This document shows positions 40,371 through 59,869 of a stretch of 64,000 nucleotides of DNA, piece after piece; the first letter of the stretch is position 1, and the number at the start of each line of letters is the position of its first letter. Origin of the DNA: Rhodococcus zopfii NBRC 100606 = JCM 9919 (GTDB taxonomy: Bacteria > Actinomycetota > Actinomycetes > Mycobacteriales > Mycobacteriaceae); NCBI RefSeq assembly GCF_001895025.1, contig NZ_BCXI01000001.1, forward strand, positions 372,001-436,000, written 5' to 3'. A model generated the notes under the pieces. The model did no database searches. It saw nothing but the letters and a program-made list of their open reading frames with translations, and was not told where the DNA came from. The translations under genes were made by a program, and so were the position numbers.

Positions 40371-43300
40371 TCACCGCTCCGTCGCGCGCACGAGCAGGCG
40401 CAATTCCGCGCCGAGCGTGCACGCCCGCGGCAGGTCGACGAGCGCGTCCTCACGCAGTTCGGCGGTCAGGCGCGTCACCCGGTCGATCGAATCCGGGACT
40501 CGCTGCTGCCACCGCGCCAGGACCTCGTCGACGGCCGCCGGTGCGTGAGGGCCGCGGTCCCGGCGCAGGATGGCGGCGACGAGGCCGTGGTGGCGTTCGG
40601 CGAGGTCGTCACGCGCGGTTGCGAGCGCCGCGTTGTCCCACCAACTGTGGTGCCCGGTGGCCAGGTCCGGCGACAATCCGTCGATTCCGAGCAGCGAACC
40701 CGTGGCCGCGTGCACCCGGGCGACGATGCGCGCCGGACAATCCAGCGTAATTGCGGTGTCGACCAGCGCCGGGCACTCGCCGAGGAACCGGAAGTCCGGT
40801 TCCGCCGCGATGTCCTCGACCAGGTCCTCGATCCCGGCACGCAGCCGCATGATCTCGTCGGTCACATCGAGCGACGGTCGCAGCCGCAGAATCCACGAGA
40901 CCGCATGCTCGACGAACCCTTGCACGGCACCGAGCCGATCCCACCGGGCGGCACCGGAGTCGGCACTGTCCCGCGCCTCGGCCCACAGCCGGTCGGTGTC
41001 GAACACCGCCCGGATCACCGCGTAGGCACGGGCGACCGCCGGTGTGCGTACCCCGAGCCGTTCCTCGAGCTGATAGATCATCCCGGGGCCGACGTGATCG
41101 ACGAGATCGGAGGCGATCCGGGTGGCGACGATCTCGCGGCGCAGGGGATGGTCCCGGATCTCGTCCCGCAGCAGGTCGCGCATGCCGGCGGGGAAGTATT
41201 CGCGGGCGACGGCGGCGAAGACGGGGTCGTCGGGCACGTCGGAGTCGAGTAGGTCCCGGCACACGACGTTCTTCGATCGCGCGAGCAGTGCCGCGATCTC
41301 CGGCCTGGTCAACCCGCGACCGGCGCCGGCCCGCGCCGCCAGTTCCTGCACGGTGGGCAGCACCTCGGTGCTGCGCCGGATCCCGCCGGTCTCGAGGTGG
41401 ACGATGAGCCGTTCGTGTCTGGCGAGCAACCGGGTTGCGCGCGAGCCGGCGAGCCCGAGCGCCACCGACTGATCCCGGCTCGTGCGGAGCACCGTCCGGG
41501 CCACCTCGTCCCTGGCGTCGGCCAGCAGCCGGTCGCGCTCGGCGAGGGTCAGACGTCCGCGGCGCCGTGCGGATTCGAGGGCGATCTTCAGATTCACCTC
41601 GGCGTCGGAGGTGGCCACGCCGGCCGCGTTGTCGATGAAGTCGGCATTGACGTGGCCGCCCGCGGCCGCGAACTCGACGCGCGCACGCTGCGTCAAACCG
41701 AGGTTGCCGCCCTCGCCGACGACACGACACCGCAGCTGCGCGGCGTCGACACGGACGGGGTCGTTTGCCGGATCGGCTGCGTCCGTGTGACTTTCGGAGG
41801 AGGCCTTGACGTAGGTGCCGACACCGCCGTTCCAGAGCAGATCCACCGGCGCCGTCAGCAGCGCCTTGATCAACTCGTCCGGGGTGGTGGTCGGGTGGGA
41901 CAGTCCGAGCAGCCGCCGTGCCGGTTCCGGGACGATCACCGACTTCGCGGAACGTGGCCACACGCCTCCTCCGACGGAGAGGACGTCGCGGTCGAAGTCG
42001 TCCCAGCTCGATCCGGAGAGCTCGAACAGCCGACGACGCTCCGCGTAGGCACGGGCCGTATCCGGGTCGGGGTCGAGGAAGATGTGCCGGTGGTCGAAGG
42101 CACCGACGAGGCGCAGGTGCGGGGAGAGCAGCATCCCGTTGCCGAAGACGTCACCGGACATGTCGCCGATTCCCACCGCCGTCACCTCGGTGGTGTCCAC
42201 GTCGAGACCGAGGTCGGCGAAGTGCTCACGGACCGCAACCCATGCGCCGCGCGCGGTGATGCCCATCGCCTTGTGGTCGTAGCCGCTCGATCCGCCCGAA
42301 GCGAAGGCGTCGCCGAGCCAGTAGTCGTACTCCGCCGCGATGGAGTTCGCCAGGTCGGAGAACCGGGCGGTGCCCTTGTCCGCGGCCACCACCAGGTAGG
42401 CGTCGTCCCCTGCGTGGACGACGGTGCGGTCCGGGTGCACGATCCGTCCCTCGACGATGTTGTCGACGAGGTCGAGCATTCCCCGGATGAACGTCGAATA
42501 GGCATGGGCGGGAGAGATATCCGGTCGTCTGCGGACGAACGCGCCCTTGGCGCCGACCGGGACGATGGGCGCATTCTTGACCACCTGGGTCTTCATGAGG
42601 CCGAGCACTTCGGTGCGGTAGTCCTCCGGGCGGTCCGAGAACCGCACCCCGCCACGGGCGACTGTGCCGCTTCGCACGTGGATCCCCTCCATCTCGTCCG
42701 AGTGGACGAAGATCTCGCGGTGGGGAACGACCGGTCCGGGATCGGCGAGGCGCCCGGACTCGAGCATGAACGCGCCGTGCGGTTTCGGTGCGCCGTGTTC
42801 GTCCCGCTGGTACCAGTTGGTGCGCACGGTCGCGGTGACGAACGACTCCAGGCTGCGCAGGATGCGGTCCTCATCCAGGCTGTCCGCCGCACCGCGCCGC
42901 GCGGCAAGCGCCGATTCGGCGTCGGCGGTATCCCGGTTGCGCCGGTCCGGATCGAAGCGCGCGGCGAAGCAGGCGACGAGTGCCTCGACGAATCGGGCGT
43001 TCCGGCAGAGGGTGTCGACGACGTACCGTTCCGACATGATCAGTCCCGCCTGGCGGGCGAAGCGGGCGGCGGCGCGGATCAGGTCGATGTCGCGCACGCC
43101 CACCTCGGCGACGACGGCGAGGCGGGAGTACCCGTCGACGACGGTGTGACCCAGCGCGTGGGCGTCGAAGACCGCCGCCACCCGGCGCGGCGAGCCCGGT
43201 TCCCAGTCCGGGGGCGTGACGAAAGCGAACCGGTGCACCCGGCGGTCTTCGTCGTCCACCTTCAGGAGTTCGTGCTCGTCGATCCGCAGCCCGAAATGCT

Positions 43301-43496
43301 CGAAGGTGTGGACGGAGTCGGCGAGCAGCGGCTCTCGTCCCGGCCATCGCATGACGGCACCCGCGGTACCGTCGGCGGGCTCCTCGACGAACAACAGGGC
43401 CGGTCGAGAATCCTGCGAGCGCGCGAGGAGCCGTGCGGCCTCGGCGACGTCGGGGGGCGCCGGTTCGCGCGGATGCGCGGTAGCGGTGTCGGTCAT
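40371..43496 (-). CDS. NAD-specific glutamate dehydrogenase, large (115-kDa-type) form
   Basis: The 1041-residue enzyme oxidatively deaminates glutamate to 2-oxoglutarate with NAD+. The catalytic domain shows KTQVVKNAPIVPVGAKGAF near residue 300 (substrate lysines) and the nucleotide-binding VGIGDMSGDVFGNGMLLS; a helical C-terminal domain of about 350 residues follows. It lacks the long N-terminal regulatory region of the 180-kDa class and so fits the shorter class. The ATG at 43494-43496 has AAAGGA seven bases upstream; an ATG at 43502 is too close to it. It is divergent from the aminotransferase operon, whose glutamate product it would recycle. Confidence 0.9.
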   Translation of the reverse strand: MTDTATAHPREPAPPDVAEAARLLARSQDSRPALLFVEEPADGTAGAVMRWPGREPLLADSVHTFEHFGLRIDEHELLKVDDEDRRVHRFAFVTPPDWEPGSPRRVAAVFDAHALGHTVVDGYSRLAVVAEVGVRDIDLIRAAARFARQAGLIMSERYVVDTLCRNARFVEALVACFAARFDPDRRNRDTADAESALAARRGAADSLDEDRILRSLESFVTATVRTNWYQRDEHGAPKPHGAFMLESGRLADPGPVVPHREIFVHSDEMEGIHVRSGTVARGGVRFSDRPEDYRTEVLGLMKTQVVKNAPIVPVGAKGAFVRRRPDISPAHAYSTFIRGMLDLVDNIVEGRIVHPDRTVVHAGDDAYLVVAADKGTARFSDLANSIAAEYDYWLGDAFASGGSSGYDHKAMGITARGAWVAVREHFADLGLDVDTTEVTAVGIGDMSGDVFGNGMLLSPHLRLVGAFDHRHIFLDPDPDTARAYAERRRLFELSGSSWDDFDRDVLSVGGGVWPRSAKSVIVPEPARRLLGLSHPTTTPDELIKALLTAPVDLLWNGGVGTYVKASSESHTDAADPANDPVRVDAAQLRCRVVGEGGNLGLTQRARVEFAAAGGHVNADFIDNAAGVATSDAEVNLKIALESARRRGRLTLAERDRLLADARDEVARTVLRTSRDQSVALGLAGSRATRLLARHERLIVHLETGGIRRSTEVLPTVQELAARAGAGRGLTRPEIAALLARSKNVVCRDLLDSDVPDDPVFAAVAREYFPAGMRDLLRDEIRDHPLRREIVATRIASDLVDHVGPGMIYQLEERLGVRTPAVARAYAVIRAVFDTDRLWAEARDSADSGAARWDRLGAVQGFVEHAVSWILRLRPSLDVTDEIMRLRAGIEDLVEDIAAEPDFRFLGECPALVDTAITLDCPARIVARVHAATGSLLGIDGLSPDLATGHHSWWDNAALATARDDLAERHHGLVAAILRRDRGPHAPAAVDEVLARWQQRVPDSIDRVTRLTAELREDALVDLPRACTLGAELRLLVRATER

Positions 43497-43579
43497 CTGC
43501 ATGTCCTTTCGATCACCCGGTGTGAGCCGTGATGTGCCGCCAGTCTGCGGATGGCCATCGATGACGGACATGTGTTCGG

Positions 43580-43615
43580 TGTACAGGAAGGTCCCATAAC
43601 TTGTACTTCAGGTCC
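43580..43615 (+). promoter_or_regulatory. Direct repeats over a -10 box before the aminotransferase operon
   Basis: TGTACAGGAAGGTCC at 43580-43594 and TGTACTTCAGGTCC at 43602-43615 share TGTAC and GGTCC and start 22 bases apart, about two helical turns. TAACTT at 43597-43602, a TAnnnT -10 candidate, lies between them, 72 bases before the aminotransferase start. The arrangement suits a regulator binding twice on one DNA face, perhaps one of the PucR proteins. It lies in the 177-base divergent region shared with glutamate dehydrogenase. Confidence 0.45.
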
Positions 43616-43673
43616 ATCACCGGCCGGCTTCTGCACTCCTACAGTTCGAGGAAACCTACGGACGGAGAAGAAC

Positions 43674-45032
43674 ATGACCGCAGTGGATCAGGTACTGGGC
43701 GGGCCCACGCTCGAGCAGGCACGCCGCATCGTGACGGAGATCCCGGGACCCCGGTCCCGGGAGCTGGCGCGGCGCCGCGCCGCCGCACTGCCGGCGGGCC
43801 TGGCCAGTGGCGCCGAGATCTACGCCGCCGCCGGGGGCGGGGGTGTGCTCGTCGACGTGGACGGGAATTCCTTCATCGACCTCGGCTCCGGCATCGCCGT
43901 CACCACCGTCGGCAACTCCGCCCCTCGGGTGGTCGAACGCGCCACCGCGCAGCTGCAGCAGTTCACCCACACCTGTTTCCTCGCCACCCCCTACGAGCCG
44001 TACATCGAGGTCGCCGAGGCCCTCAACCGGCTGACTCCCGGCACCCACGCCAAGCGCACAGCCCTGTTCAACACCGGCAGCGAGGCCGTCGAGAACGCCG
44101 TGAAGTACGCCCGCGCAGCGACCGGCCGGTCCGCCGTGGTCACGTTCGACCACGCCTTCCACGGCCGGACGCTGATGACGATGACCATGACGGCGAAGAA
44201 TCAGCCCTACAAGCACTCCTTCGGTCCGTTCGCCCCGGAGGTCTACCGCGCCCCGATGGCCTACCCCTACCGGTGGTCGGGTGGGCCCGACCGCGCCGCG
44301 GACGAGGCGTTCGAGCAGTTCCGGTTGCTCGTCGACGCTCAGATCGGTGCGGACCAGGTGGCGTGCGTCGTCGTCGAACCCATCCAGGGCGAAGGCGGGT
44401 TCATCGTTCCCGCCGACGGATTCCTGCGGCGCATCGCCGATTTCTGCCGGGACCGCGGCATCCTCGTCGTCGCCGACGAGGTCCAGACCGGAATCGCCCG
44501 CACCGGAGCCTGGTTCGCGTGCGAGCACGAGGGCCTCGTGCCGGATCTGATCGTCACGGCGAAGGGACTCGCCGGCGGATTCCCCCTCGCGGCCGTCACC
44601 GGCCGGGCCGAGATCATGGACCGCGCCCATCCGGGCGGCATCGGCGGCACCTACAGCGGCAACCCCGCCGCGTGTGCCGCGGCGCTCGGCGTATTCGAGA
44701 CGATCGAGGCCGAGCACCTGCTCGACCGCGCTCAGGAGATCGGCGCGCTGATGCTGCGGGAACTGCGCGAGATCGGCACCCGCCACCCGGTCGTCGGCGA
44801 CGTCCGCGGTCGCGGCGCCATGGTCGCCGTCGAGCTCGTCGAGCCCGGTACGACCACCCCCAACCGCGAGGCGGTCGCGGAGATCGTCCGGTACTGCCAG
44901 GCCCACGGAGTCCTCACCCTGACCGCCGGCACCTTCGGGAATGTGCTCCGGTTCCTGCCGCCGTTGTCGATCTCCGACACGCTGCTCACCGAGGCGTTCT
45001 CGGTGCTGCGCGACGCGTTCGCCGCCCTCTGA
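43674..45032 (+). CDS. gabT: 4-aminobutyrate/5-aminovalerate aminotransferase
   Basis: The 452-residue class III PLP aminotransferase moves the omega-amino group of GABA or 5-aminovalerate to 2-oxoglutarate. Family features are LFNTGSEAVENAVKYAR for cofactor phosphate binding, FDHAFHGRTLMTMT, the PLP-contacting aspartate in VVADEVQTGIARTG, and the Schiff-base lysine in IVTAKGLAGGFPL near residue 302. GGAG lies close before the ATG. GABA and 5-aminovalerate enzymes (GabT, DavT) cannot be told apart by eye; the following glutaryl-CoA dehydrogenase favours 5-aminovalerate. Confidence 0.92.
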   Translation: MTAVDQVLGGPTLEQARRIVTEIPGPRSRELARRRAAALPAGLASGAEIYAAAGGGGVLVDVDGNSFIDLGSGIAVTTVGNSAPRVVERATAQLQQFTHTCFLATPYEPYIEVAEALNRLTPGTHAKRTALFNTGSEAVENAVKYARAATGRSAVVTFDHAFHGRTLMTMTMTAKNQPYKHSFGPFAPEVYRAPMAYPYRWSGGPDRAADEAFEQFRLLVDAQIGADQVACVVVEPIQGEGGFIVPADGFLRRIADFCRDRGILVVADEVQTGIARTGAWFACEHEGLVPDLIVTAKGLAGGFPLAAVTGRAEIMDRAHPGGIGGTYSGNPAACAAALGVFETIEAEHLLDRAQEIGALMLRELREIGTRHPVVGDVRGRGAMVAVELVEPGTTTPNREAVAEIVRYCQAHGVLTLTAGTFGNVLRFLPPLSISDTLLTEAFSVLRDAFAAL

Positions 45033-45063
45033 CCACCGCTCCCCTACTCCCGAGGACCAGAGT

Positions 45064-46257
45064 ATGACCACCACCGCACCCGCACGCACGACCGGCCCCC
45101 TGCGGCCGCTCGAACTCCTCGGCGCCGACGCGTTGCTCGACGCCGACGAACGCGACATCGCCGCCACCGTCCGGAGATTCGTCGAAACCCGACTCGCCCC
45201 CGAGGTCGGCAACTGGTTCGAATCCGCCACGCTGCCCAAGGAGCTGGCGAAGGAGTTCGGCACTCTCGGCGTCCTCGGCATGCACCTGCACGGATACGGG
45301 TGCGCGGGCACCAACGCCGTCAGCTACGGTCTGGCCTGCCTGGAACTCGAGGCCGGCGACAGCGGATTCCGTAGCTTCGTCTCGGTGCAGGGCTCGCTGT
45401 CGATGTTCTCGATCCACCGCTACGGGTCCGACGAGCAGAAGGAGCACTGGCTGCCCCGGCTCGCCTCCGGCGACGCCATCGGGTGCTTCGGCCTGACGGA
45501 ACCCGACTTCGGTTCCAACCCCGGGGGAATGCGTACCCGCGCCCGCCGGGACGGGTCGGACTGGATCCTCACCGGCACCAAGATGTGGATCACCAACGGC
45601 AATCTCGCGGACGTCGCCACGGTGTGGGCGCAGACCGACGAGGGTGTGCGCGGGTTCGTCGTGCCCACCGACACCCCCGGCTTCACCGCCAACCCGATCC
45701 ACCGGAAGCTGTCGCTGCGGGCGTCGGTGACCTCCGAGCTGGTGCTCGACAACGTGCGCCTGCCGGCATCGGCCGAGCTGCCGCTCGCCCGCGGACTCGG
45801 CGCTCCCCTGTCCTGCCTCAACGAGGCCCGGTTCGGGATCGTGTTCGGCGCGCTCGGCGCGGCCCGCAACAGCCTCGAGACCGCATTGGACTACGCCGCC
45901 TCCCGCGAGGTCTTCGATCGTCCGCTCGCCGCCTACCAGCTCACCCAGGAGAAGCTGGCCGACATGACGCTCGAGCTCGGCAAGGGATTCCTGCTCGCGC
46001 TGCACCTCGGCCGCCTCAAGGACGAATCCGGGGTCACTCCCGAGCAGATCAGCCTCGGCAAGCTCAACAACGTCCGCGAGGCCCTGGCCATCGCCCGCGA
46101 ATGCCGGACCATCCTCGGCGCCAGCGGAATCACCCTCGAGTACTCGCCGCTGCGGCACGCCAACAACCTCGAGTCGGTGCTGACCTACGAGGGCACCAGC
46201 GAGATGCACCTGCTCTCGATCGGTCGCGCGCTGACCGGTCACGCCGCATTCCGCTGA
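45064..46257 (+). CDS. gcdH: Glutaryl-CoA dehydrogenase
   Basis: The 397-residue flavoprotein oxidises and decarboxylates glutaryl-CoA to crotonyl-CoA. It follows human and bacterial glutaryl-CoA dehydrogenases closely. Matching features are the arginine in GFRSFVSVQGSLSMF (substrate carboxylate), GCFGLTEPDFGSNPGGM, TKMWITNGNLAD, KLSLRASVT, CLNEARFGI and the catalytic glutamate in LTYEGTSEMH near residue 375. This pattern is distinct from short-chain acyl-CoA dehydrogenases. It begins 31 bases after the aminotransferase. Confidence 0.92.
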   Translation: MTTTAPARTTGPLRPLELLGADALLDADERDIAATVRRFVETRLAPEVGNWFESATLPKELAKEFGTLGVLGMHLHGYGCAGTNAVSYGLACLELEAGDSGFRSFVSVQGSLSMFSIHRYGSDEQKEHWLPRLASGDAIGCFGLTEPDFGSNPGGMRTRARRDGSDWILTGTKMWITNGNLADVATVWAQTDEGVRGFVVPTDTPGFTANPIHRKLSLRASVTSELVLDNVRLPASAELPLARGLGAPLSCLNEARFGIVFGALGAARNSLETALDYAASREVFDRPLAAYQLTQEKLADMTLELGKGFLLALHLGRLKDESGVTPEQISLGKLNNVREALAIARECRTILGASGITLEYSPLRHANNLESVLTYEGTSEMHLLSIGRALTGHAAFR

Positions 46258-46289
46258 TCCGCACCGTCGACGCGTCGAAGGGACACACC

Positions 46290-47756
46290 ATGACGACACC
46301 CGTTCTGCTGCAACACTACATCGACGGTGAGTGGTTCGACGGCGGGGCCGAGGCTCTGACCAGCATCAGCCCCGCCGAGCCGGACGTCACCGTCGCGCAC
46401 GGCCGGGCGGCCACCGGCGACGACGTCGACCGGGCCGTCGCCGCCGCGCGCGCCGCGGCCCGGCACTGGGCGAAGACCCCGGCGCACGAACGCGGTGCCG
46501 TCCTGGCCCGGGCGGCCGCCGTCGTCGAATCGTCCGCCCCCCAGTGGGGCGCGGAACTCGCCCGCGAGGAGGGCAAGACGCGCGGCGAGGGCGTCGCCGA
46601 GGTACTCCGCGCCGCCCAGATCCTGCGCTTCTACGGCGGCGAGGGAGACCGGGAGGCCGGTGAGGTGTTCGCCTCCCCGCGGCGCGGGGAACAGATCCTG
46701 GTCGCGCGCAAACCCGTCGGCGTGGTGGGGGTCGTCACCCCCTTCAACTTCCCCATCGCCATCCCCGCCTGGAAGATCGCCCCGGCACTGACCTACGGCA
46801 ACACCGTGGTGTGGAAGCCGGCGGGCACCGTGCCGCTGCTGGCGATGCGGCTCGCGCAGGCCCTCGCCGACGCGGGCCTGCCACCGGGCGTGCTCAACCT
46901 CGTCGTCGGCGGCCGGGCGGTCGGCGCCGGCATCGCCGATCATCCGGGGATCGACGCGCTGACCTTCACCGGTTCGACGGCGGTCGGTCGGAGCCTCGCG
47001 GCGGCCGGGGCCGCGCGGGGCGTGCCGGTGCAGGCGGAGATGGGGGGCAAGAACGCGGCCGTCGTGCTCGGCGACGCGGACCTCGATCTCGCCGCCGAGC
47101 AGGTGCTGCTCGGTGCGTTCCGGTCGTCGGGGCAGAAGTGCACGGCGACCTCGCGGCTGATCGTCACCGACGACGTCGCCGACGAGTTCGTCGGTGAACT
47201 GGTCGCCCGGATCGGCAAGTGGACCGTCGGCAATCCCCTCGATGAGCAGGTCCACATGGGCCCGGTGGTCGACGCCGCGGCGCGGACCTCGATCCAGGCC
47301 GGTGTCGACGAGGCGGTCCGGCAGGGTGCCCGCCTGCTGTGCGGCGGGCGACCGTACGAGGACGGTGAACTCGCGGCCGGGTTCTACGTGCCGCCCACCG
47401 TGCTCGAGTTGCCCGGCACCGGGCTCGACGTGTGGCGGGAGGAGTTGTTCGGACCCGTCCTGGCCGTGTGCCGCGCGGCGGACGCCGAGGCGGCGTTCGC
47501 GCTCGCCGACGACAGCGAGTACGGATTGTCGGCCGCGGTGTTCACCCAGGACCTCACCCGCGCGCTCGGGGCGCTCGAGGACCTGGACGTGGGCATCCTG
47601 CACATCAACTCCGAATCCGCCGGTGCCGATCCGCACGTCCCGTTCGGCGGCGCCAAGAAGAGCGGCTACGGCCCGAAGGAACAGGGCCGCGCGGCGCGGG
47701 AGTTCTTCACCCACACCACGACCGTCTACCTCCGCGGCGGGAGGCCGATCGCATGA
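46290..47756 (+). CDS. NAD(P)-dependent aldehyde dehydrogenase
   Basis: The 488-residue enzyme has PFNFPIAIPAWKIAPAL with VVWKPAG (NAD site), the FTGSTAVGRSL nucleotide loop, the general base glutamate in VQAEMGGKN and the catalytic cysteine in SGQKCTATSR near residue 285. It resembles semialdehyde dehydrogenases of the alpha-ketoglutarate/glutarate semialdehyde group. In this operon it most likely oxidises the semialdehyde formed by the aminotransferase. Its stop overlaps the CoA-transferase start (ATGA). Confidence 0.9.
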   Translation: MTTPVLLQHYIDGEWFDGGAEALTSISPAEPDVTVAHGRAATGDDVDRAVAAARAAARHWAKTPAHERGAVLARAAAVVESSAPQWGAELAREEGKTRGEGVAEVLRAAQILRFYGGEGDREAGEVFASPRRGEQILVARKPVGVVGVVTPFNFPIAIPAWKIAPALTYGNTVVWKPAGTVPLLAMRLAQALADAGLPPGVLNLVVGGRAVGAGIADHPGIDALTFTGSTAVGRSLAAAGAARGVPVQAEMGGKNAAVVLGDADLDLAAEQVLLGAFRSSGQKCTATSRLIVTDDVADEFVGELVARIGKWTVGNPLDEQVHMGPVVDAAARTSIQAGVDEAVRQGARLLCGGRPYEDGELAAGFYVPPTVLELPGTGLDVWREELFGPVLAVCRAADAEAAFALADDSEYGLSAAVFTQDLTRALGALEDLDVGILHINSESAGADPHVPFGGAKKSGYGPKEQGRAAREFFTHTTTVYLRGGRPIA

Positions 47757-48868: not shown

Positions 48869-48888
48869 CCGGAGAGGCCTGGAGGAGT

Positions 48889-48924
48889 GCCCGTCCCGTC
48901 GCGCCCGGCCGCGGCGGGACGGGC
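48889..48924 (+). terminator. Terminator of the aminotransferase operon
   Basis: GCCCGTCCCG at 48889-48898 pairs with CGGGACGGGC at 48915-48924; the 16-base loop is itself GC-rich and partly self-complementary. It begins 20 bases after the CoA-transferase stop. Confidence 0.75.
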
Positions 48925-49446
48925 GTCGCACGGGGGCGGGACCGTGTCGGATCAAGGATGCACGACGGCGCGAACCTCGTGTGCCGGAACGGTGGCTGCG
49001 GGGACTCGATGCCGACGACGTCCAGAAGCGTCACCGATGCCGACAGGTCCATGAACCCGACGGCCTTGCCGTGCAGGCCGTCGGCGGCAGCTGGTTCCTA
49101 CAGCACAATCTCGGCGACCGTGCAGCTGTACCGGACGAAGGTGGTCACGGTGAGAGCGACGGTGATCGCCGTTCGGGACAACAGACGCTCCGGACAACAG
49201 ATTCGCCACAACCCTGGCTGCCATCGGCTCGTTTCCGAAGATGTTGGCCTACAGGATCATTCACTCCACCAGCATGACCAGCCGAGCGGGGAACCGATCG
49301 AGCGGGAAGCCCTGGACCGTGCCGAAGCCGACGATCATCCGCGCTCGTTCGAGCGACGCAGTGTCCGGTCGCCGGCCGTTCGCGGTCACCGTCACGAACC
49401 GCGCGAATTTCGGCGTCGGTGATTACGGTCGAACCCGCCTGCGCCA
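48925..49446. other. Stretch without a supportable gene
   Basis: No complete gene is seen in these 522 bases. The base composition and several short frames suggest old coding DNA. One short minus-strand frame open from 49422 to its stop at 49261-49263 (containing TASLERARMIVGFGTVQG) has protein-like character but no plausible upstream start, so it may be the tail of a lost gene. The region separates the aminotransferase operon from the convergent PucR gene. Confidence 0.4.
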
Positions 49447-52585: not shown

Positions 52586-52609
52586 CTTCTCCCTCGGATG
52601 TGCAAAACT

Positions 52610-52651
52610 CCAACGATTGGGGCAACTCAATTCACTATCTCCAATTGATGG
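52610..52651. promoter_or_regulatory. Paired palindromes between pucR and hyuA
   Basis: CCAACGATTGG at 52610-52620 and CCAATTGATGG at 52641-52651 are 11-base palindrome-like elements. They sit in similar surroundings (TCCAA at the left, GGGG at the right) with start points 31 bases apart, close to three helical turns. They lie in the divergent promoter region, 25 bases before the pucR start and 51 bases before the hyuA start. Binding by the PucR protein is inferred, not shown. Confidence 0.5.
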
Positions 52652-52701
52652 GGTGCCGACCAGGCCGAATACTGGGTCACACCCAAAACAGGAGTATGAC
52701 G

Positions 52702-54759
52702 ATGATCACATCTCGCAGTCCTCACCTTCGCGTCGCCGTGGACGTCGGCGGCACCTTCACAGACGTGTGCATCTTCGACGAGAGCGCTTCGACCACCCGC
52801 ATCGCGAAGGTTCCCTCGACCCCGGACGACCCGATGCGAGCCGTGATGGACGGCGTGCGCACCGCGGGCATCGATCTCACCGAGGTGAGTCTGTTCTCCC
52901 ACGGCACCACGGTCGCGACCAATGCGCTCATCACCCGCAACTTCCCACCCGCGGCGCTGGTGACTACCCGCGGGTTCCGCGACGTGCTCGAGATTCGCGA
53001 CGGCACCAAGGACGAGCTCTGGGACACGTACGTCGACGTCGGCACCCCCTACATCCGTCGCCGGGACCGGTACGAGGTCACCGAGCGCATCGACTACGCC
53101 GGCGAGATCGTCACCCCGCTCGACGAGACCGAAGTCCGCGAACTCGCCCGGGTCCTCCGCCGCAAGAACATCAAGACCGTCGCGGTCTGCCTGATCAACA
53201 GCTACGTCGACAACACCCACGAACAGCGCGTCCGGGCGCTGCTCGAGGCCGAAATTCCCGACGTCACTGTTTCGACCTCGAGCGAGATCCTCCCCGAGAT
53301 CTTCGAGTACGACCGCGCCTCCACCACCGTCGCGAACGCCGTGCTCGCGCCGCTGGTCAGCGGATACGTCAACCGGCTCGAAGCGCAGTTGCGCACCGAC
53401 GGGTACGAGGGCGACCTGCTCCTGCTCCATTCCGGCGGCGGTTCCATGACTCCCGCGATGGTGGAAAAGTTCCCCGTCCGCCTCGCCGCTTCCGGCATCG
53501 CCGCCGGCGCGATCGCCGTGGCCGACATCGCGACCCGCTGCGGATACCCCAATGCGATCGGCCTGGACATGGGAGGTACCAGCACCGACATCTCGCTCGT
53601 CTACGACGGCGAGGTCCGCACCACCAAGCAGTGGCAGGTCGAGTACGGCTTCCCCATCTCGTTCCCCAGCATCGAGGTGCTCACGATCGGTGCGGGCGGC
53701 GGATCGCTGGCCTGGCTGGACGAGGCGGGCTCGCTGCGCAACGGGCCGCAGTCCGCCGGCGCCTCCCCCGGCCCGGCCTGCTACCTGCGCGGCGGCTCCG
53801 AGCCGACCAACACCGACGCGAACGTGCTGCTCGGCCGGCTGGGCACCGCCCTCATCGGCGGCGGACTCACCCTGGACGTGGCGGCCGCCGAGAACGCGAT
53901 CAAACAGAGCGTGGCCGGACCTCTCGGCCTCGACGCCGACACCGCGGCGAGCAACATCATCCAGGTGGCCAACGCGAACATGGCGGATGCGGTGCGGCTG
54001 TTGTCGATTCGCCGCGGCTACGATCCGCGTGACTTCGTCCTCGTCGTGTGCGGTGGGGCGGGCGCCCTGCACGGCGCGGCCCTGGCGAAGGAACTGTCCA
54101 TTCCGACCGTTGTGGTGCCACCCCACCCGGGTATCACCTCGGCGCAGGGCTGCCTTCTCGTCGACATCCGGCACGACCTGTCGGCGATGTTCCAGGGCCG
54201 AGTCGACGAGGTCGACACCACCGCGCTCGAATGCGAGTTCCTTCGCCTCGAACAGGAGGGCACGCAGCGTCTTCGCCACGAGGGGGTCCCACCCGAGCGA
54301 ATGGTCCTCGACCGTCACATCAGCATGCGCTATGCGGGGCAGTGGCGTTCGCTCACCGTCACCGCCGGCAGCGGTCCCGGCTTCCTGACGGAGGCAGTCG
54401 AGCGGTTCCACGAGGAGCACGAACGGGACTACTCGTTCCGGCGTGACAACACGCCCGTGGAGATCTACCAGATCGGCCTGCGCGCGGTGGGCACCACACC
54501 GAAACCGAACTTCCCGCGAACCTCCGAACCCAGCACTGGTGAGCCGACGCCCGTGGAACGGCGCCACGTCTACTTCGACGAAGCACGCGGCCGGCTCGAT
54601 ACACCCGTCTTCGACCGCGGCACACTGGAATTCGGTGCGCGGATCCCCGGCCCTGCCGTGATCACCCAGCTCGACTCCACCACCGTCGTCCCCCCGGGGA
54701 CCACCGCCACGATCGACGAGTGGGCGAATATCCGTATCGACATCCAGGAGACCCGATGA
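52702..54759 (+). CDS. hyuA: Hydantoinase/oxoprolinase family, subunit A
   Basis: The 685-residue subunit A of an ATP-dependent cyclic-amide hydrolase has the actin-like phosphate-1 motif VDVGGTFTDVCIF near residue 13, SHGTTVATNALI near residue 72, GLDMGGTSTDISL near residue 290 and VVCGGAGALHG near residue 450. The family includes 5-oxoprolinase, N-methylhydantoinase, caprolactamase and valerolactam hydrolase (OplBA), which couple ring opening to ATP hydrolysis. The second ATG (52702) is preferred: AGGAG is seven bases upstream, against one base for the ATG at 52696. It overlaps hyuB (ATGA). Confidence 0.92.
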   Translation: MITSRSPHLRVAVDVGGTFTDVCIFDESASTTRIAKVPSTPDDPMRAVMDGVRTAGIDLTEVSLFSHGTTVATNALITRNFPPAALVTTRGFRDVLEIRDGTKDELWDTYVDVGTPYIRRRDRYEVTERIDYAGEIVTPLDETEVRELARVLRRKNIKTVAVCLINSYVDNTHEQRVRALLEAEIPDVTVSTSSEILPEIFEYDRASTTVANAVLAPLVSGYVNRLEAQLRTDGYEGDLLLLHSGGGSMTPAMVEKFPVRLAASGIAAGAIAVADIATRCGYPNAIGLDMGGTSTDISLVYDGEVRTTKQWQVEYGFPISFPSIEVLTIGAGGGSLAWLDEAGSLRNGPQSAGASPGPACYLRGGSEPTNTDANVLLGRLGTALIGGGLTLDVAAAENAIKQSVAGPLGLDADTAASNIIQVANANMADAVRLLSIRRGYDPRDFVLVVCGGAGALHGAALAKELSIPTVVVPPHPGITSAQGCLLVDIRHDLSAMFQGRVDEVDTTALECEFLRLEQEGTQRLRHEGVPPERMVLDRHISMRYAGQWRSLTVTAGSGPGFLTEAVERFHEEHERDYSFRRDNTPVEIYQIGLRAVGTTPKPNFPRTSEPSTGEPTPVERRHVYFDEARGRLDTPVFDRGTLEFGARIPGPAVITQLDSTTVVPPGTTATIDEWANIRIDIQETR

Positions 54760-56717
54760 CCACCACGTCCCCCACCCTCGATCCGGTCACGTTCGAGGTT
54801 CTCAAGAACGCGTTCGCCACCTCGGTCGACCTGATGTCCGAGCAGATCCTGCGCACCTGCTACTCGTTCGTCATCTACTCGCGGGACTTTTCCTCCGCAC
54901 TCTGCGACGCCGAAGGCAATACGGTGATGCAGGGCAGCCAGGACATCGCCGTCCACGTCGGCACCCTCCACTTCCAATGCAAGGCCGTGCTGGAGGAATT
55001 CGGCTCCGACATCAACCCCGGCGACATCTTCATGGTCAACGACCCCTACCGGGGCGGCACCCACCTCAACGACGTCAGCTTCGTCCGGCCGATCTTCGCG
55101 GACGGGGTCCTCATCGCCTTCGCGCAGAACAAGGGGCACTGGGCCGACATCGGCGGCAGCGTGCCGGGATCGTTCGACGTGACCGCCACCGAACATTTCG
55201 GTGAGGGCCTGCGAATCACGCCGGTCCGGGTGTGGCACGAGGGCCGATTCCTCGCCGACGTCGCGAAACTGCTCGTCGCGAACACCCGCTCGCCGGAGAT
55301 CAGCATGGGTGACCTACACGCCCAGGCCGAGGCGACGGGCGTGTGCGAACGCGAAATCCATCGGTTGGTAGGCAAATACGGTCGCGACACAGTCACCGGC
55401 GCGATGCGCGAGGTCCAGGACTACGTCGAGCGGATCGTGCGCAGCCGGGTCGCCGACCTGCCGGACGGCACCTGGACCACCGAGGACTACCTCGATTCCG
55501 ATCCCGCTCGTCCTGAGGGTCTCGTCCCGATCCGGGTGACCATGACGATCGAGGGTGACCAGCTCAGCTACGACCTGACGGGCAGCGCACCGGCCGTCGC
55601 CAGCTTCCTCAACAGCGGCTACGGCACCGCGTTCTCCGGGATCGTGGCCGGCACCAAGTCCTTCTTCCCCGACGTCCCGCTGAACTCGGGCCTCTACAAC
55701 GCGATCCGCACCGACCTCGGACCGGAGGGCACCGTCGTCAATGCAGGCTGGCCGCACGCGGTGACCGGGTTCTGTTCCGGCCCCTACGAGAAGATCATGA
55801 ACGCGATCTTCGAACTGTGGTCGAAGGTCGTGCCGTCCCGCGCCATCGCCTGCTCGTTCAACCTCGAGTACCTGCTCGTCGGCGGCCGCGACGCCCGCAC
55901 CGAGGATCGCTCGTTCTTCATGTGGTACGACTGGATGGCCGGCGGCTGGGGCGGCCGCAGCTCGAAGGACGGCTCGAGCGCCACCGCACCGGTGTTCGGC
56001 ATCGGCCTGGCCGTGCAACCGTGCGAGGGACAGGAACGGCTGACCCCCGTCCTCACGACCGAACATGCCATCATCACCGATTCCGGTGGACCGGGCGAAT
56101 ACCGCGGCGGGTGCGGACTGTCCAAGGGCGGTGTCCTCACCGACAGCGACAACAGCGTGATGTCCTACTGCTGCGACCGTTCCCGCTCGGTCACGTGGGG
56201 CATCGAGGGCGGCCTCCCCTCCATCCCGCACGGCGTCTGGCTCAACCGCGGCACCCCTGAAGAGCGCTTTCTCGGTTCCGTGTTCTCGAATGTGCCGGTC
56301 CAGTCCGGGGATTCCTTCGAGCGGCCGTCGGCCGGTGGCGGTGGCTACGGGGATCCGCTGCGGCGGGTCCCGGAGTCCGTGCTCGAGGACGTGATCGACG
56401 GGTATGTCTCCGTCGAACGCGCCGCCCTGGACTACGGCGTCGTCGTCGTACCGGTGGATCCCGAGATCGACCGTTACGAACTCGACGACGACGCCACCGA
56501 GCGCCTCCGCGCGAAGATCCGCGTGTCTCGCGAGGGTTGGCTCGCCGAGGATCCCGAATCCGTCGCCGTCCGCTACCGCAGTGGTGAGCTGTCCGTGCTC
56601 GACCTCGTGCGTCGCTACGGCGTGATCGTCGACTGGGGTACCGGCGAGTTGCTGCCCACCACCACCGCCCAGTTCCGCGATCTCCTGCTGACCCGGTCCG
56701 TCGCGCACTGGTCCTGA
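54756..56717 (+). CDS. hyuB: Hydantoinase/oxoprolinase family, subunit B
   Basis: The 653-residue subunit B carries the family features DPVTFEVLKNAF at the start, SRDFSSALCDAEGN, the NDPYRGGTHLNDVSFV metal and substrate region near residue 91, and the glycine-rich PSAGGGGYGDPLRRVPE near residue 530. A C-terminal extension of about 100 residues (YRSGELSVLDLVRRYGVIVD and the following WGTGEL) makes it longer than many HyuB proteins. It is translationally coupled to hyuA and closed by a terminator. Confidence 0.92.
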   Translation: MTTTSPTLDPVTFEVLKNAFATSVDLMSEQILRTCYSFVIYSRDFSSALCDAEGNTVMQGSQDIAVHVGTLHFQCKAVLEEFGSDINPGDIFMVNDPYRGGTHLNDVSFVRPIFADGVLIAFAQNKGHWADIGGSVPGSFDVTATEHFGEGLRITPVRVWHEGRFLADVAKLLVANTRSPEISMGDLHAQAEATGVCEREIHRLVGKYGRDTVTGAMREVQDYVERIVRSRVADLPDGTWTTEDYLDSDPARPEGLVPIRVTMTIEGDQLSYDLTGSAPAVASFLNSGYGTAFSGIVAGTKSFFPDVPLNSGLYNAIRTDLGPEGTVVNAGWPHAVTGFCSGPYEKIMNAIFELWSKVVPSRAIACSFNLEYLLVGGRDARTEDRSFFMWYDWMAGGWGGRSSKDGSSATAPVFGIGLAVQPCEGQERLTPVLTTEHAIITDSGGPGEYRGGCGLSKGGVLTDSDNSVMSYCCDRSRSVTWGIEGGLPSIPHGVWLNRGTPEERFLGSVFSNVPVQSGDSFERPSAGGGGYGDPLRRVPESVLEDVIDGYVSVERAALDYGVVVVPVDPEIDRYELDDDATERLRAKIRVSREGWLAEDPESVAVRYRSGELSVLDLVRRYGVIVDWGTGELLPTTTAQFRDLLLTRSVAHWS

Positions 56718-56725
56718 CCGTGAGG

Positions 56726-56751
56726 GCGGGGCAGCGAACTCGCTGCCCCGC
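56726..56751 (+). terminator. Terminator after hyuB
   Basis: GCGGGGCAGCG at 56726-56736 pairs with CGCTGCCCCGC at 56741-56751 across a four-base loop, nine bases after the hyuB stop, followed by a T-rich run. The permease downstream may therefore have its own promoter or depend on readthrough. Confidence 0.85.
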
Positions 56752-56868
56752 TTCGGTTTCCGCTTCACTCCTTCCCGAACACTCTCCGACCGAACCTCCC
56801 ACCCGGTATCGCGGGCGGTCGTGCACCCCTGCGCCGGTTCGGATTCCCTCCCCTCGAGAGGCGGCCCC

Positions 56869-58212
56869 ATGCCCGATCAGCTCACCGATTCCGTCCCCGA
56901 ACCCCGCGCGGAGCGCGACCACGTGCCCGACTCGGGCCGGATGTCCCGGTGGTCGCTGACGATGGCCTGGTGGGCCATGTTCAGCGCAATGTTCTGGCTC
57001 TACATCGCAATTGCCTCGGCCGGAGCGGTCGGTGTGCCGGCGACTCTGGTGGGGATGGCCGCCTCCGTCGTCACCTTCGGCGTCGTGAATCTGGCGCTGT
57101 CCCGGTATGCGATCCACACCGGCCTGTCCGTCGAGTTGCTGTCCCGGCGCATGTTCGGTGCCGTCGGCTCACTGCTCGCCCCGGCGCTGTTCGCCGCCAC
57201 CGCGCTCTACTACGGGGTCTTCGAAGGATCCATCGTCGCCGTGGCCCTGCAGGAGTACTTCGGCGGCGATATCAGGCTGTGGTATCTGCTGTGCACGGTG
57301 TACATGATTCCCGTGGTGATCGGCGGCGTGGCCGCGTGGCTCGACAAGCTCAACGGGATCCTCCTGCCGTTCTACCTCGCAGGCATGGTCGCCGTCGTGG
57401 TGGCCGCGACCGTGCAACAGGGGTACCCCACCGGTTGGCTGACCGCCACGGTGGCGTCGGGTCCGCTTCCGGGCTGGCTCACCGCCTACCTCGTCTACAT
57501 GGGTGTCTGGGTACTGATGATGTACACCATCGACTACGCGAGGCTCGGTCGAAGTGCCGACGCCGGTTTCCACGGCACCGTCACGTTCGGCTGGGTGTTC
57601 TACGCGGTGACCTTCGGGTTCAACGGACTCATCGGCCTCTACCTCCTCGGGGCCCGGGACATCGCCGGAACCGAGTCCGGTGTGGTCGAGGCGGTCGTCG
57701 GCTCCCTCGGCTTCGCCGGGGTCCTGCTGATCATCGTGTCCCAGACCCGCATCAATTCCGCAAACTTCCATCTGGCCTCAACCAACCTTCAGGTGTTCGC
57801 CCGCCGGGCGCTGGGCCTCGACATACCCCGGGCGGTGTGGGTGGTGGTCACCGCGGTGCTCGCATACCTGCTCATGCTCACCGATGTGCTGGGATACCTG
57901 TTGCAGGCCCTCGCCTGGCAGGGCGTGCTGATCACCGCCTGGGTGGCGATCGCGCTGGTCTATGTGCTGCGGGATCGCTGCCACCTCATGCCCGGTACCG
58001 CGTCCGGGGGTGTGCCGGCGTGGCTGATCTCCTCGGCCGCGGGTATCGCGCTCACTGTGCAGAAGGTCAGCGCGACGTGGGCCCAGCTCGCGCCGGTCGT
58101 GACGGTGGCACTGGCCGCGGGCAGCTACGCGCTGCTCACCCCGCGAGCAGGCGTGACGGACCGCCGGACGGCGGAACCCGAGTCCTCACCGGACGAGGCG
58201 CAGCCGGTGTGA
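56869..58212 (+). CDS. NCS1-family permease (nucleobase/hydantoin type)
   Basis: This 447-residue protein has about 12 predicted membrane helices and the general pattern of NCS1 transporters (cytosine permease CodB, hydantoin permease Mhp1): WSLTMAWWAMFSAMFWLYIA in helix 1, and the polar helices with YTIDYARLGRSAD and ISQTRINSANFHLAS-like (here IVSQTRINSANFHLAST). It likely imports a cyclic amide or nucleobase by cation symport. GAGAGG precedes the ATG. Its place after hyuAB suggests it carries the substrate of HyuAB. Confidence 0.87.
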   Translation: MPDQLTDSVPEPRAERDHVPDSGRMSRWSLTMAWWAMFSAMFWLYIAIASAGAVGVPATLVGMAASVVTFGVVNLALSRYAIHTGLSVELLSRRMFGAVGSLLAPALFAATALYYGVFEGSIVAVALQEYFGGDIRLWYLLCTVYMIPVVIGGVAAWLDKLNGILLPFYLAGMVAVVVAATVQQGYPTGWLTATVASGPLPGWLTAYLVYMGVWVLMMYTIDYARLGRSADAGFHGTVTFGWVFYAVTFGFNGLIGLYLLGARDIAGTESGVVEAVVGSLGFAGVLLIIVSQTRINSANFHLASTNLQVFARRALGLDIPRAVWVVVTAVLAYLLMLTDVLGYLLQALAWQGVLITAWVAIALVYVLRDRCHLMPGTASGGVPAWLISSAAGIALTVQKVSATWAQLAPVVTVALAAGSYALLTPRAGVTDRRTAEPESSPDEAQPV

Positions 58213-58256
58213 ATCCGGACGGGCAATTGCCTCGACGGCGAATGTGATCGCGGATC

Positions 58257-58302
58257 ATGTACATCGGCGACATGTCGTGGGTCACATTTGCGGGCCTACT
58301 GT
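58257..58302 (+). promoter_or_regulatory. Palindromes and -10 candidate before the amino acid permease
   Basis: ATGTACAT at 58257-58264 and CGACATGTCG at 58268-58277 are perfect palindromes sharing the ACATGT/ATGTAC character. TACTGT at 58297-58302 fits the TAnnnT -10 pattern, about 80 bases before the start. The palindromes would overlap the -35 region and could be an operator. Confidence 0.35.
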
Positions 58303-58384
58303 TCTCCCATCCGAACGACAGCGCAGTCGGAGCGCCGGAAATGGCACGCGAAGGCGCCGCACGACAGGTTTCGAAGGGAGTGCC

Positions 58385-59869
58385 GTGCACACCGATTCAC
58401 AGGCCGAGAGGCCAGACGCCCTGGGGCACGCGCTGAAGAAGCGCCATCTCACCATGCTGTCGATGGGCGGGGTGATCGGCGCCGGGTTCTTCGTGGGCAT
58501 CAGCGCGATCATCGGCCAGGCCGGCCCCGGCGCCATCCTCACCTGCCTGATCTGCGGCGTCATTGTCTTCCTGGTCATGCGAATGCTCGGGGAGATGGCC
58601 GTTGCCAAACCCTGCACCGGCTCGTTCACCGAATACGCCCGCGAGGCCATGGGCAACTGGGCGGGGTTCGCCACCGGATGGCTGTTCTGGTACTTCTGGG
58701 TGGTCGTCGTCGGGATCGAGGCCGTGGTCGGGGCCACACTGCTCGGCCGCTGGCTTCCCGACGTCCCGCTGTGGCTGATGGCAGCCGGTCTGCTGTTGAT
58801 CATGACCGTGGTGAACCTGCTGTCGGTCGGCAATTTCGGTGAGGCCGAATACTGGTTCGCCGGAATCAAGGTCGCGGTGATCATCGCGTTCCTGGTCCTG
58901 GCCGGTCTCTACGTGCTGGGCGTCTGGCCCGGCACGGACCTGTCATTCCGCAACCTGACCGCGCACGGCGGCTTCCTGCCGAACGGCTTCACTCCCGTCC
59001 TGGTCGGGGTGGTCGCCGTGATCTTCTCGATGACGGGAGCCGAGCTCGTCACCATCGCCGCGGCCGAGTCGAAGGAGCCGGCGGCCGCGATCCGCCGTGC
59101 CACCAGCACCGTCGTGTTCCGGATCCTGGCCTTCTTCGTCGGTGCGACGTTCCTGCTCGTCACGATGCTGCCGTGGGACACCTACGTGGTCGGCGAGTCC
59201 CCCTTCGTGTCCGCCCTCGACGTCCTGGGCGTTCCCGGGGCTGCCGAGATTCTCAACTTCGTGGTGCTGGTGGCCGTGCTCTCGTGTCTGAACTCGGGGC
59301 TCTACACCGCGTCGCGCATGCTGTTCGTGCTCGGTGCCCATCGCGACGCACCCGCATGGATGACGGCGGTCAACTCCCGCGGTGTCCCGCTCAAGGGCGT
59401 GCTGTCGTGCACGTTCGTGGGATACGTGTGCATCGTCGCCGCCTACGTCTGGCCCGACACGATCTTCTTGTACCTTGTCACGTCGTCCGGTGCGATCTGC
59501 CTGTTCGTGTACATCATGATCTGCCTTTCCGAGCTGGTGCTGCGCCGCCGCTGGGAGCGCACGTCCCCGGAGATCCTGCAGTTCCGGGTGTGGCTGTATC
59601 CAGCCCTCCCCGTCGTCGTCACGGCCGTCATCGTCGCAATCCTCGTCGGCATGTGGTTCACCGGCGCCCGTGCCGAACTGGTGCAGTCGCTGATCGCGCT
59701 CGGCGTCATCGTCGCCGCGTACCACCTCAACACCCGGTACCAGCGCCGACGCGGACGCGCCCGGACCACCCCACCCGGGGAGACCGCATTGGCACGGGCG
59801 ATGCACGTCGACAGGGCACCGCGACCCGCCGCGCCGGAGCCTGCCACCTCGGGCGATCCTGCGCACTGA
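58385..59869 (+). CDS. APC-family amino acid permease (GabP-like)
   Basis: The 494-residue permease has about 12 membrane helices. The helix 1 substrate loop MLSMGGVIGAGFFVG near residue 20, AVAKPCTGSFTEYAREAMGN in helix 3 and ESKEPAAAIRRATSTVVFRI place it in the amino acid transporter family of GabP, LysP and ProY. The likely substrate is a polar or omega-amino acid such as GABA or 5-aminovalerate; this is inferred from the neighbourhood. The GTG at 58385-58387 follows GAAGGGAG. It is the last gene of the catabolic island. Confidence 0.87.
   Translation: MHTDSQAERPDALGHALKKRHLTMLSMGGVIGAGFFVGISAIIGQAGPGAILTCLICGVIVFLVMRMLGEMAVAKPCTGSFTEYAREAMGNWAGFATGWLFWYFWVVVVGIEAVVGATLLGRWLPDVPLWLMAAGLLLIMTVVNLLSVGNFGEAEYWFAGIKVAVIIAFLVLAGLYVLGVWPGTDLSFRNLTAHGGFLPNGFTPVLVGVVAVIFSMTGAELVTIAAAESKEPAAAIRRATSTVVFRILAFFVGATFLLVTMLPWDTYVVGESPFVSALDVLGVPGAAEILNFVVLVAVLSCLNSGLYTASRMLFVLGAHRDAPAWMTAVNSRGVPLKGVLSCTFVGYVCIVAAYVWPDTIFLYLVTSSGAICLFVYIMICLSELVLRRRWERTSPEILQFRVWLYPALPVVVTAVIVAILVGMWFTGARAELVQSLIALGVIVAAYHLNTRYQRRRGRARTTPPGETALARAMHVDRAPRPAAPEPATSGDPAH

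Follow-up and report, generated by a model that had tools for sequence, protein, structure and literature searches.

A candidate lactam catabolic island in Rhodococcus zopfii that joins hyuAB to genes for 5-aminovalerate and glutaryl-CoA breakdown

Genes of the island

We analysed a stretch of 64,000 nucleotides from Rhodococcus zopfii NBRC 100606 (contig NZ_BCXI01000001.1, positions 372,001 to 436,000; hereafter the window, in which all coordinates are given). Between positions 40371 and 59869 the window carries a block of genes (hereafter the island) in which hyuAB, the genes of a putative ATP-dependent lactam-opening enzyme, stand together with genes for a predicted route from 5-aminovalerate to crotonyl-CoA. 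Genes were called from open reading frames (ORFs) and from Pfam and NCBIfam scans, and their starts were taken from codons and Shine-Dalgarno-like sequences. The original prediction, made from the letters of the window, had named a glutamate dehydrogenase, an aminotransferase, glutaryl-CoA dehydrogenase, a semialdehyde dehydrogenase, a CoA-transferase, two PucR regulators, HyuA-HyuB and two permeases at this place. All of these genes were found there by Pfam, NCBIfam or PDB matches, the NCS1 permease being recognised through a structure model and a homologue.

The left part of the island begins on the reverse strand with the gene of a short NAD-dependent glutamate dehydrogenase (NAD-GDH, 1066 residues, 40371..43571; PF05088 (Bac_GDH_CD), 716 bits), whose true start is perhaps at 43502. 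Divergent from it, on the forward strand, lies gabT (43674..45032, its start set by a ribosome-binding site), the first gene of an operon. GabT is a class III-fold omega-amino acid:2-oxoglutarate aminotransferase by annotation and scored 575 bits against TIGR00700, the gamma-aminobutyrate (GABA) transaminase equivalog model, above the cut-off of 507. The product of gcdH (45064..46257) found its best match in a PDB sequence search in 3swo (757 bits), an entry named 'glutaryl-CoA dehydrogenase', with 1siq at 356 bits; we take these to be the M. smegmatis and the human enzymes, respectively. It keeps the residues aligned to human Arg94, Ser95, Tyr369 and Glu370, whose numbering and active-site roles we presume. 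Since the protein is closest to known glutaryl-CoA dehydrogenases and keeps the active-site Arg and Glu, it is classed as the decarboxylating type.

The next gene encodes an aldehyde dehydrogenase (ALDH; 46290..47756; PF00171, 509 bits), proposed to act on glutarate semialdehyde. Its nearest NCBIfam models were those of alpha-ketoglutaric semialdehyde dehydrogenase and 2,5-dioxovalerate dehydrogenase, and neither cut-off was reached. The class III CoA-transferase gene that follows (47753..48868; PF02515, 414 bits) would encode succinyl-CoA:glutarate CoA-transferase. Its best NCBIfam model was NF052585 (succinate-glutarate CoA-transferase) at 361 bits, below the cut-off of 750; among its PDB matches the succinate-hydroxymethylglutarate CoA-transferase 9br7 (E 6.5e-79) ranked behind formyl-CoA transferase, a CaiB/BaiF entry and YfdE. 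The intergenic gaps of the operon are 31 and 32 bases long, the ALDH and CoA-transferase genes overlap by 4 bases, and a G+C-rich hairpin (48892..48921, an inverted repeat with 11 of 12 pairs) follows. As annotation, the predicted pathway from 5-aminovalerate onward is well supported.

Because the R. zopfii genome also holds a second gcdH beside a CoA-transferase gene, together with further gabT genes (59% and 50% identical at the protein level to the island GabT), the C5 set of the island is an extra copy. A second GcdH of 65-75% identity is present in 15 of the 18 genus genomes; R. aetherivorans has one and R. ruber does not. In R. zopfii and two sister genomes (L099, L105, L103) its gene adjoins that of a CoA-transferase 62-63% identical to the island enzyme, and only the array of one sister genome (L103) also has an ALDH gene, with 67% identity. 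In R. ruber (L100) and R. aetherivorans (L101) a second short NAD-GDH gene was observed with pucR, gabT and ALDH genes, and with no hyuAB within 17-20 kb. Since the linkage of the NAD-GDH gene to gabT recurs there, NAD-GDH would seem to go with transamination.

The right part of the island holds the regulators, hyuAB and the permeases. On the reverse strand lie pucR1 (49447..50997; PF07905, PF13556 and PF17853) and pucR2 (51026..52585; assigned by Pfam domain scan), the latter divergent from hyuA. The forward-strand genes hyuA (52696..54759; PF05378, PF01968 and PF19278), for the ATP-binding subunit, and hyuB (54756..56717; PF02538, 521 bits), for the metal-binding subunit, overlap at ATGA and are followed by a perfect 12-bp inverted repeat (56726..56751), a probable terminator. 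Next on the forward strand is a divergent permease (56869..58212), proposed as the lactam importer, which gave no Pfam match even at an E limit of 5. A Halomonas homologue (39-42% identical) matches PF02133 at 29 bits, and the AlphaFold model of the permease (mean pLDDT 70) found CodB (E 6e-10) and the hydantoin transporter Mhp1 as its top PDB matches. The permease as modelled has the NCS1 fold. The last gene encodes a GabP-like permease (58385..59869; PF00324, 376 bits), a putative omega-amino acid importer whose best NCBIfam model was the GABA permease TIGR01773 (501 bits, below the cut-off of 678). Between the CoA-transferase gene and pucR1, R. ruber has a 508-codon membrane-protein ORF (L005:3751-5277) with no Pfam match, of which window positions 48869-49342 keep only DNA matching its end.

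Mobility and co-inheritance

The window has the DNA from ~40.36 to ~59.91 kb in common with R. ruber, R. aetherivorans and R. sp. HM1, and the ends predicted for the block (40371 and 59869) agree with these limits. Each end bears a hairpin: on the left, beyond the NAD-GDH gene, at 40330..40367, with the shared DNA starting at 40355-40382; on the right, beyond gabP, at 59880..59913, with the shared DNA ending at 59911 and the native flank beginning at 59919-59939. Downstream of the island, aroB and aroC lie on the opposite strand. In R. ruber and R. aetherivorans the matches to the left flank of the window (28-36 kb and 31.6-36.2 kb, respectively), a patatin-like gene (51-53% identical) and aroB are on a contig other than that of the island, and the patatin-like gene and aroB are 4.5 and 5.2 kb apart there without it. 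In G004, a close relative that has no island, the right flank is shared up to 59939. Between R. zopfii and G004 the AroB proteins are 99% identical, and between R. zopfii and R. ruber 89%. In R. gordoniae DND3 the island is on plasmid pDND3A. The block thus sits at different sites in relatives whose flanks are contiguous without it, as is expected of a genomic island. As for terminal repeats, matches of only 11-13 bp were found between the two ends. The site to the left of aroB (59.9-60.8 kb) is itself variable: R. sp. HM1 has ~3.6 kb of other DNA there between matches to 60729 and 60757.

In comparison with R. ruber, identity is 90-94% for the island DNA and 83-90% for the flank DNA examined. 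R. sp. HM1 tends to show the opposite: identity is 86-91% within the island, while at aroB it is 93% over a stretch of 3.2 kb and, beside that stretch, 87% over 0.8 kb. These patterns fit transfer between species.

The genus-wide search covered HyuA, GabT, NAD-GDH and GcdH. The cluster HyuA (at least 94%), GabT (at least 94%) and NAD-GDH (at least 75%) occurred in the same 5 of 18 genomes, that of R. zopfii included, and the cluster GcdH (at least 97%) in 3 of the 18, all among these carriers. At the family level the HyuA clade was present in 24 of 401 genomes (limit E 1e-180), and 21 of the 24 loci were examined (all except those of G105, G277 and G351). The genes for GabT, GcdH, ALDH and CoA-transferase were linked to hyuAB at 7 of these 21 loci, in four genera: R. 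zopfii itself, R. aetherivorans (G001), R. ruber (G007), G170, G179, G041 and, in another gene order, Millisia brevis (G044). Streptomyces sp. CB01580 (L025) has the same genes and both pucR genes beside hyuAB, in a different order; no NAD-GDH match was found within the stretch of that locus compared. At two Enteractinococcus loci gcdH and a CoA-transferase gene are present, with no aminotransferase gene in reach. A chance neighbourhood was rejected on the basis of this co-inheritance. The proposed joining of the two halves in one actinobacterial cluster was thus borne out, and the neighbourhood search that had been put forward as a check found hyuAB and the glutaryl-CoA genes together, so that the case of their never co-occurring did not arise. 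The cluster is a genuine unit that recurs and can move.

A lactamase-type subfamily around HyuAB

HyuA and HyuB are paired subunits with Hydant_A_N, Hydantoinase_A and Hydantoinase_B domains, which makes them members of the ATP-dependent lactamase/hydantoinase/oxoprolinase family. HyuA keeps two DxGGT phosphate motifs (aspartates D16 and D291) together with the GxxPGP and adenosine motifs. In an alignment of the window HyuB with 16 ORFs out of 43 available from relatives, the metal ligands D44, H103, D106 and H128 (Asp-His-Asp-His) were present in all 17 proteins. Domain build, ATP motifs and metal site are shared with the caprolactamase CapAB of Pseudomonas jessenii GO3 (PDB 6YRA). HyuAB differs from CapAB in a phenylalanine in place of Tyr136, in the lack of the vicinal disulfide, in a bulkier pocket and in a HyuB that is ~70 residues longer at the C-terminus, with conserved positions.

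The pocket residues of CapB were taken from passages of PMC8453981. Relative to CapB, the changes L38Y, Y136F, A365L, I368L, S389W, C410F, C411G and F468Y were found in all 17 HyuB proteins and V386W in 16 of them. The pocket is near-uniform across the clade, distinct from that of CapB and bulkier (A365L, V386W, S389W). The window HyuB has no charged residue at any of the compared positions; in a single relative, histidine occupies the position of M339. Such a bulkier, uncharged pocket would suit a ring that is smaller than that of caprolactam and bears no carboxylate, and its uniformity suggests that the clade as a whole acts on a single kind of ring substrate, smaller and uncharged.

Direct filing as a caprolactamase was ruled out by score and by tree. 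Against the NCBIfam caprolactamase equivalogs NF050156 and NF050157 the proteins scored 537 and 341 bits, with cut-offs of 1000 each. A HyuA tree was built from 50 matches of at least 420 residues from 48 hand-chosen loci, shorter matches being dropped. In it the window HyuA and all 33 members of at least 49% identity formed one clade (support 0.95) without CapA, which fell in the neighbouring branch under midpoint rooting; the fused N-methylhydantoinase and other HyuA-like proteins of Rhodococcus were also outside. Identity between the window HyuA and its counterpart in R. ruber NBRC 15591 is 96%.

OplAB of P. putida KT2440 (PP_3514-3515), a delta-valerolactam/caprolactam hydrolase, is a two-subunit enzyme for ATP-dependent lactam opening, as is predicted for HyuAB here, and passages of PMC11033972 and PMC11879879 describe it as needed for growth on the lactam. 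According to the same parts of PMC11033972, OplAB is strongly active on delta-valerolactam, with traces only on gamma-butyrolactam, and OplA is 80% identical to CapA, whereas the present HyuA lies outside the CapA branch.

The neighbourhoods of 45 clade loci from a genome scan were then compared. A class III aminotransferase gene was present at 16 of them, including loci of haloarchaea, Bacilli and a metagenome-assembled genome (MAG) of Hyphomicrobiales; gcdH with a CoA-transferase gene at 5; an NCS1 permease gene at 11; and a pucR2 homologue at 23. None of the 20 loci of distant HyuA in the same scan had an aminotransferase, gcdH with CoA-transferase, pxp, NCS1 or pucR2 gene; this control is imperfect, in that Chloroflexi and other MAGs supplied most of the 20 loci and clade neighbourhoods supplied part of the query library. 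Eight annotated plasmid loci were also read, where 743 records matched and 40 of them were listed. Aminotransferase genes accompany hyuAB on plasmids of Halomonas (with a semialdehyde dehydrogenase gene), Ensifer, Sulfitobacter and Natronorubrum (with a CoA-acylating semialdehyde dehydrogenase gene). The Paracoccus plasmid has a permease gene and no aminotransferase gene, that of Methylobacterium pxp and biotin carboxylase genes, and that of Rhizobium molybdenum hydroxylase genes.

Since the linkage to class III aminotransferases recurs in several phyla, the simplest common factor of these loci suggests that HyuAB releases an omega-amino acid. A terminal amino group leaves the chain length unfixed; the C5 assignment here is suggested by gcdH and the CoA-transferase gene. 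The lactam-opening step by HyuAB is probable, and the ring size is less so.

Some side observations concern these neighbourhoods. On the Rhizobium TH2 plasmid the genes of a three-subunit molybdenum hydroxylase lie directly 3' of hyuAB (L077:12073-15748), and this enzyme possibly makes the lactam from a cyclic imine. On the Natronorubrum plasmid (L076) two distinct hyuAB pairs lie in tandem, together with genes for an amidase, an M20 hydrolase, a flavin oxidoreductase and an aminotransferase. The clade is accompanied by pxp-like genes in Cryobacterium and Aeromicrobium (L016, L019, L029, L034), Bacilli (L032-L038 except L034), Chloroflexi (L046, L048) and Methylobacterium (L073), and a biotin carboxylase gene joins them at the actinobacterial and Methylobacterium loci.

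Proposed route and alternatives

In pseudomonads, 5-aminovalerate is converted to crotonyl-CoA by the DavT-DavD-GcdG-GcdH route. The same order of reactions is proposed for the island, which differs in having actinobacterial enzymes, its own NAD-GDH gene and pucR genes. In addition, the 5-aminovalerate and glutarate genes here are in the same cluster as hyuAB, whereas in P. putida the lactam, 5-aminovalerate and glutarate genes are not known to be linked.

As the best explanation we propose, with moderate confidence, that the genes form a horizontally transferred island for the catabolism of a C5 lactam, with a route from delta-valerolactam to crotonyl-CoA. The NCS1 permease would import delta-valerolactam (2-piperidone) or a close relative. 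HyuA would activate the lactam with ATP, and HyuB would open the ring at its metal site to give 5-aminovalerate, which the GabP-like permease may also import directly. GabT would convert 5-aminovalerate and 2-oxoglutarate to glutarate semialdehyde and glutamate, from which the divergent NAD-GDH would regenerate 2-oxoglutarate and free ammonium. ALDH would oxidise the semialdehyde to glutarate, the class III CoA-transferase would form glutaryl-CoA with succinyl-CoA as donor, and GcdH would yield crotonyl-CoA and CO2, beta-oxidation following. PucR2 would control hyuAB, and PucR1 the gabT operon and gabP. Families, catalytic residues, co-inheritance and mobility can be read from the sequence; we infer every substrate, transport direction and regulator target.

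Several facts weigh against this scheme. The tyrosine of CapB that is the proposed acid/base residue (Y136) is replaced throughout the aligned HyuB proteins, and the literature searched gave no biochemical record of this subfamily on any lactam. In passages of PMC9477822, hyuAB of another actinobacterium, possibly of a different subfamily and overexpressed during molinate breakdown, failed on caprolactam in E. coli. An omega-amino acid product leaves the aminotransferase-free loci unexplained, and at 10 of the 21 family loci none of the gabT, gcdH, ALDH and CoA-transferase genes stands beside hyuAB. Moreover, gabT and ALDH genes occur without gcdH at 3 of the 21 loci, those of R. gordoniae, R. 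sp. HM1 (divided between two contigs) and R. wratislaviensis (gabT ~16 kb from hyuA, no CoA-transferase match), and one Corynebacterium family locus has gabT only.

At two of these loci other genes lie in between. In R. wratislaviensis (L106:12319-19901, L045) the interval from gabT-ALDH to hyuAB holds genes for a class I amidotransferase (C26), a GntR regulator, a permease, a P450-like ORF, a ferredoxin reductase-type flavoprotein and a glutamine synthetase-like protein, resembling gamma-glutamylation or cyclic-amine oxidation modules. In Corynebacterium (L017:4427-6891), flavin monooxygenase-like and alpha/beta hydrolase genes separate gabT from hyuAB.

The gcdH-less loci bear on a reading in which HyuAB opens 2-pyrrolidone (gamma-butyrolactam) to GABA, which GabT and ALDH then take to succinate; gcdH and the CoA-transferase gene would serve 5-aminovalerate or glutarate as a second substrate sharing GabT. 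The score of GabT against the GABA-transaminase equivalog model, the absence of gcdH from the R. gordoniae locus and the occurrence of gabT without gcdH beside hyuAB in Sciscionella and Corynebacterium are in line with it. So is the second gabT of R. zopfii itself (L097), around which no ALDH match was found in 20 kb; a separate gabTD operon is therefore seen in the sister genomes only, three of which (L100-L102) have a second gabT beside an ALDH gene of 37-39% identity, as expected of gabTD. Those three pairs speak against 2-pyrrolidone, as do the CoA-transferase genes kept in R. gordoniae and R. sp. HM1 despite the loss of gcdH, since a route to succinate needs none, and the trace activity of OplAB on gamma-butyrolactam noted above. 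We regard this reading as unlikely. A related GABA system, gabTDP-GabR of Corynebacterium glutamicum, has GabT, an aldehyde dehydrogenase, GabP and a PucR-type regulator in common with the island; as described in passages of PMC7652997, that operon serves a C4 substrate and is without gcdH, CoA-transferase, hyuAB and glutamate dehydrogenase genes.

The regulatory sequences bear on whether the island is one pathway or two. The motif TGTACWKCNNNNMCATS lies upstream of gabT (43602..43618, forward strand) and of gabP (58258..58274, forward strand) and, with 1 mismatch, on the NAD-GDH side of the NAD-GDH-gabT intergenic region (43569..43585, reverse strand). At up to 1 mismatch these are the 3 sites of the window, against 0.22 expected, and all are inside the island; across the whole 6.3-Mb genome the exact motif occurs 3 times, twice in the island. 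Since the motif was built by eye from five sites that it recovers (gabT and gabP of the window, gabT of L078, gabP of L104 and gabT of L106), and since its genome-wide exact count of 3 is no higher than the 4 of a reversed control, only the placement of the sites is informative. In 114 loci there were 10 exact matches, as against 0-2 in 10 Markov shuffles; partly duplicates, they come down to six distinct sites at gabT or gabP and one elsewhere (L027). At the loci of R. ruber, R. gordoniae, G041, G170, G179 and Millisia, the region upstream of gabT had no exact copy of the motif. The pucR2-hyuA promoter has a different block, TCTCCAATTG (52638..52647, forward strand), a possible PucR2 site that is conserved in close relatives; within the window this 10-mer is no rarer than expected by chance. 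No site common to the hyuA and gab halves was found in the promoters, TGTACWKCNNNNMCATS joining gabT and gabP only. Because the conserved blocks differ, separate PucR proteins may control the two halves, one perhaps responding to the lactam and the other to the amino acid.

Such a difference, which counts against a single pathway, would be expected if two modules were together only by co-travel: a 5-aminovalerate/glutarate operon with gabP, NAD-GDH and PucR1, and hyuAB with PucR2 and the NCS1 permease for another cyclic amide. The terminator-like repeat after hyuB points the same way, as do hyuAB with pucR2 but no gab or gcd genes at seven mycobacterial loci and hyuAB with the NCS1 gene, again with no gab or gcd genes, at nine family loci. 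On the other hand, the linkage is found again in Streptomyces, and Bacilli, Proteobacteria and haloarchaea show it with other aminotransferase genes; since gene orders differ among them, shared travel alone is insufficient, and we consider the two-module reading quite improbable. The original prediction of a single-pathway unit is thus upheld by linkage and co-inheritance and not by the promoter blocks, the gcdH-less loci or the mycobacterial loci, and its overall interpretation is partly supported.

It is very unlikely that HyuAB is a 5-oxoprolinase, giving glutamate that the adjacent NAD-GDH would turn into 2-oxoglutarate. The position of the NAD-GDH gene and pxp-type neighbours at 12 of the 45 clade loci, which also count against the delta-valerolactam scheme, agree with that role. 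Opposed to it are the use of pxpTABC for 5-oxoproline by C. glutamicum, as stated in part of PMC13274462, the uncharged pocket positions of the window HyuB, and the NAD-GDH-gabT linkage away from hyuAB at L100 and L101. A hydantoinase or ATP-dependent dihydropyrimidinase with a hydantoin or pyrimidine permease is least credible of all: the NCS1 model does resemble CodB and Mhp1, and M20 genes stand near this HyuAB clade, to the detriment of the delta-valerolactam scheme, both in haloarchaea (with flavin oxidoreductase, class III aminotransferase and CoA-acylating semialdehyde dehydrogenase genes in Natronorubrum) and at two family loci (L089 and L090, M20-like and glutamine synthetase-like genes, 31-33% matches), but the Pfam and NCBIfam scans found no N-carbamoyl amino acid hydrolase among the cluster genes, and gcdH would be of no use.

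To return to the C5 lactam island, the original prediction knew of no description of this gene combination in this order, and none of the combination was found among the matches listed in the open-licence PMC literature. What is new is the arrangement and the enzyme subfamily, and the kind of system is a known one. A wider claim, for and against which we see about equal grounds, is that this would be the first complete lactam catabolic island of Gram-positives, moved between Rhodococcus chromosomes and plasmids, and that HyuAB would represent a new ATP-dependent lactamase subfamily, spread from actinobacteria to haloarchaea, without the CapAB-type tyrosine and releasing omega-amino acids (5-aminovalerate here, perhaps others elsewhere). 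If this is true, Rhodococcus would have a transferable one-piece route from the nylon-5 monomer to central metabolism, and a second lineage of lactam-opening enzymes could be set beside OplAB and CapAB.

The island may also bear on a known phenotype. As reported in passages of PMC4591350, delta-aminovalerate serves Rhodococcus BCP1 as a source of both carbon and nitrogen, and epsilon-aminocaproate as a source of nitrogen; R. opacus R7 uses neither, and the authors could tie the delta-aminovalerate phenotype to no genetic trait. The open-licence PMC literature gave nothing joining Rhodococcus, 5-aminovalerate and glutaryl-CoA dehydrogenase. BCP1 is named R. aetherivorans in the title of PMC5906575, and R. 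aetherivorans DSM 44752 carries the island. The island is a testable candidate for 5-aminovalerate use by BCP1 and, if the proposed route is correct, may supply the genetic basis sought for it.

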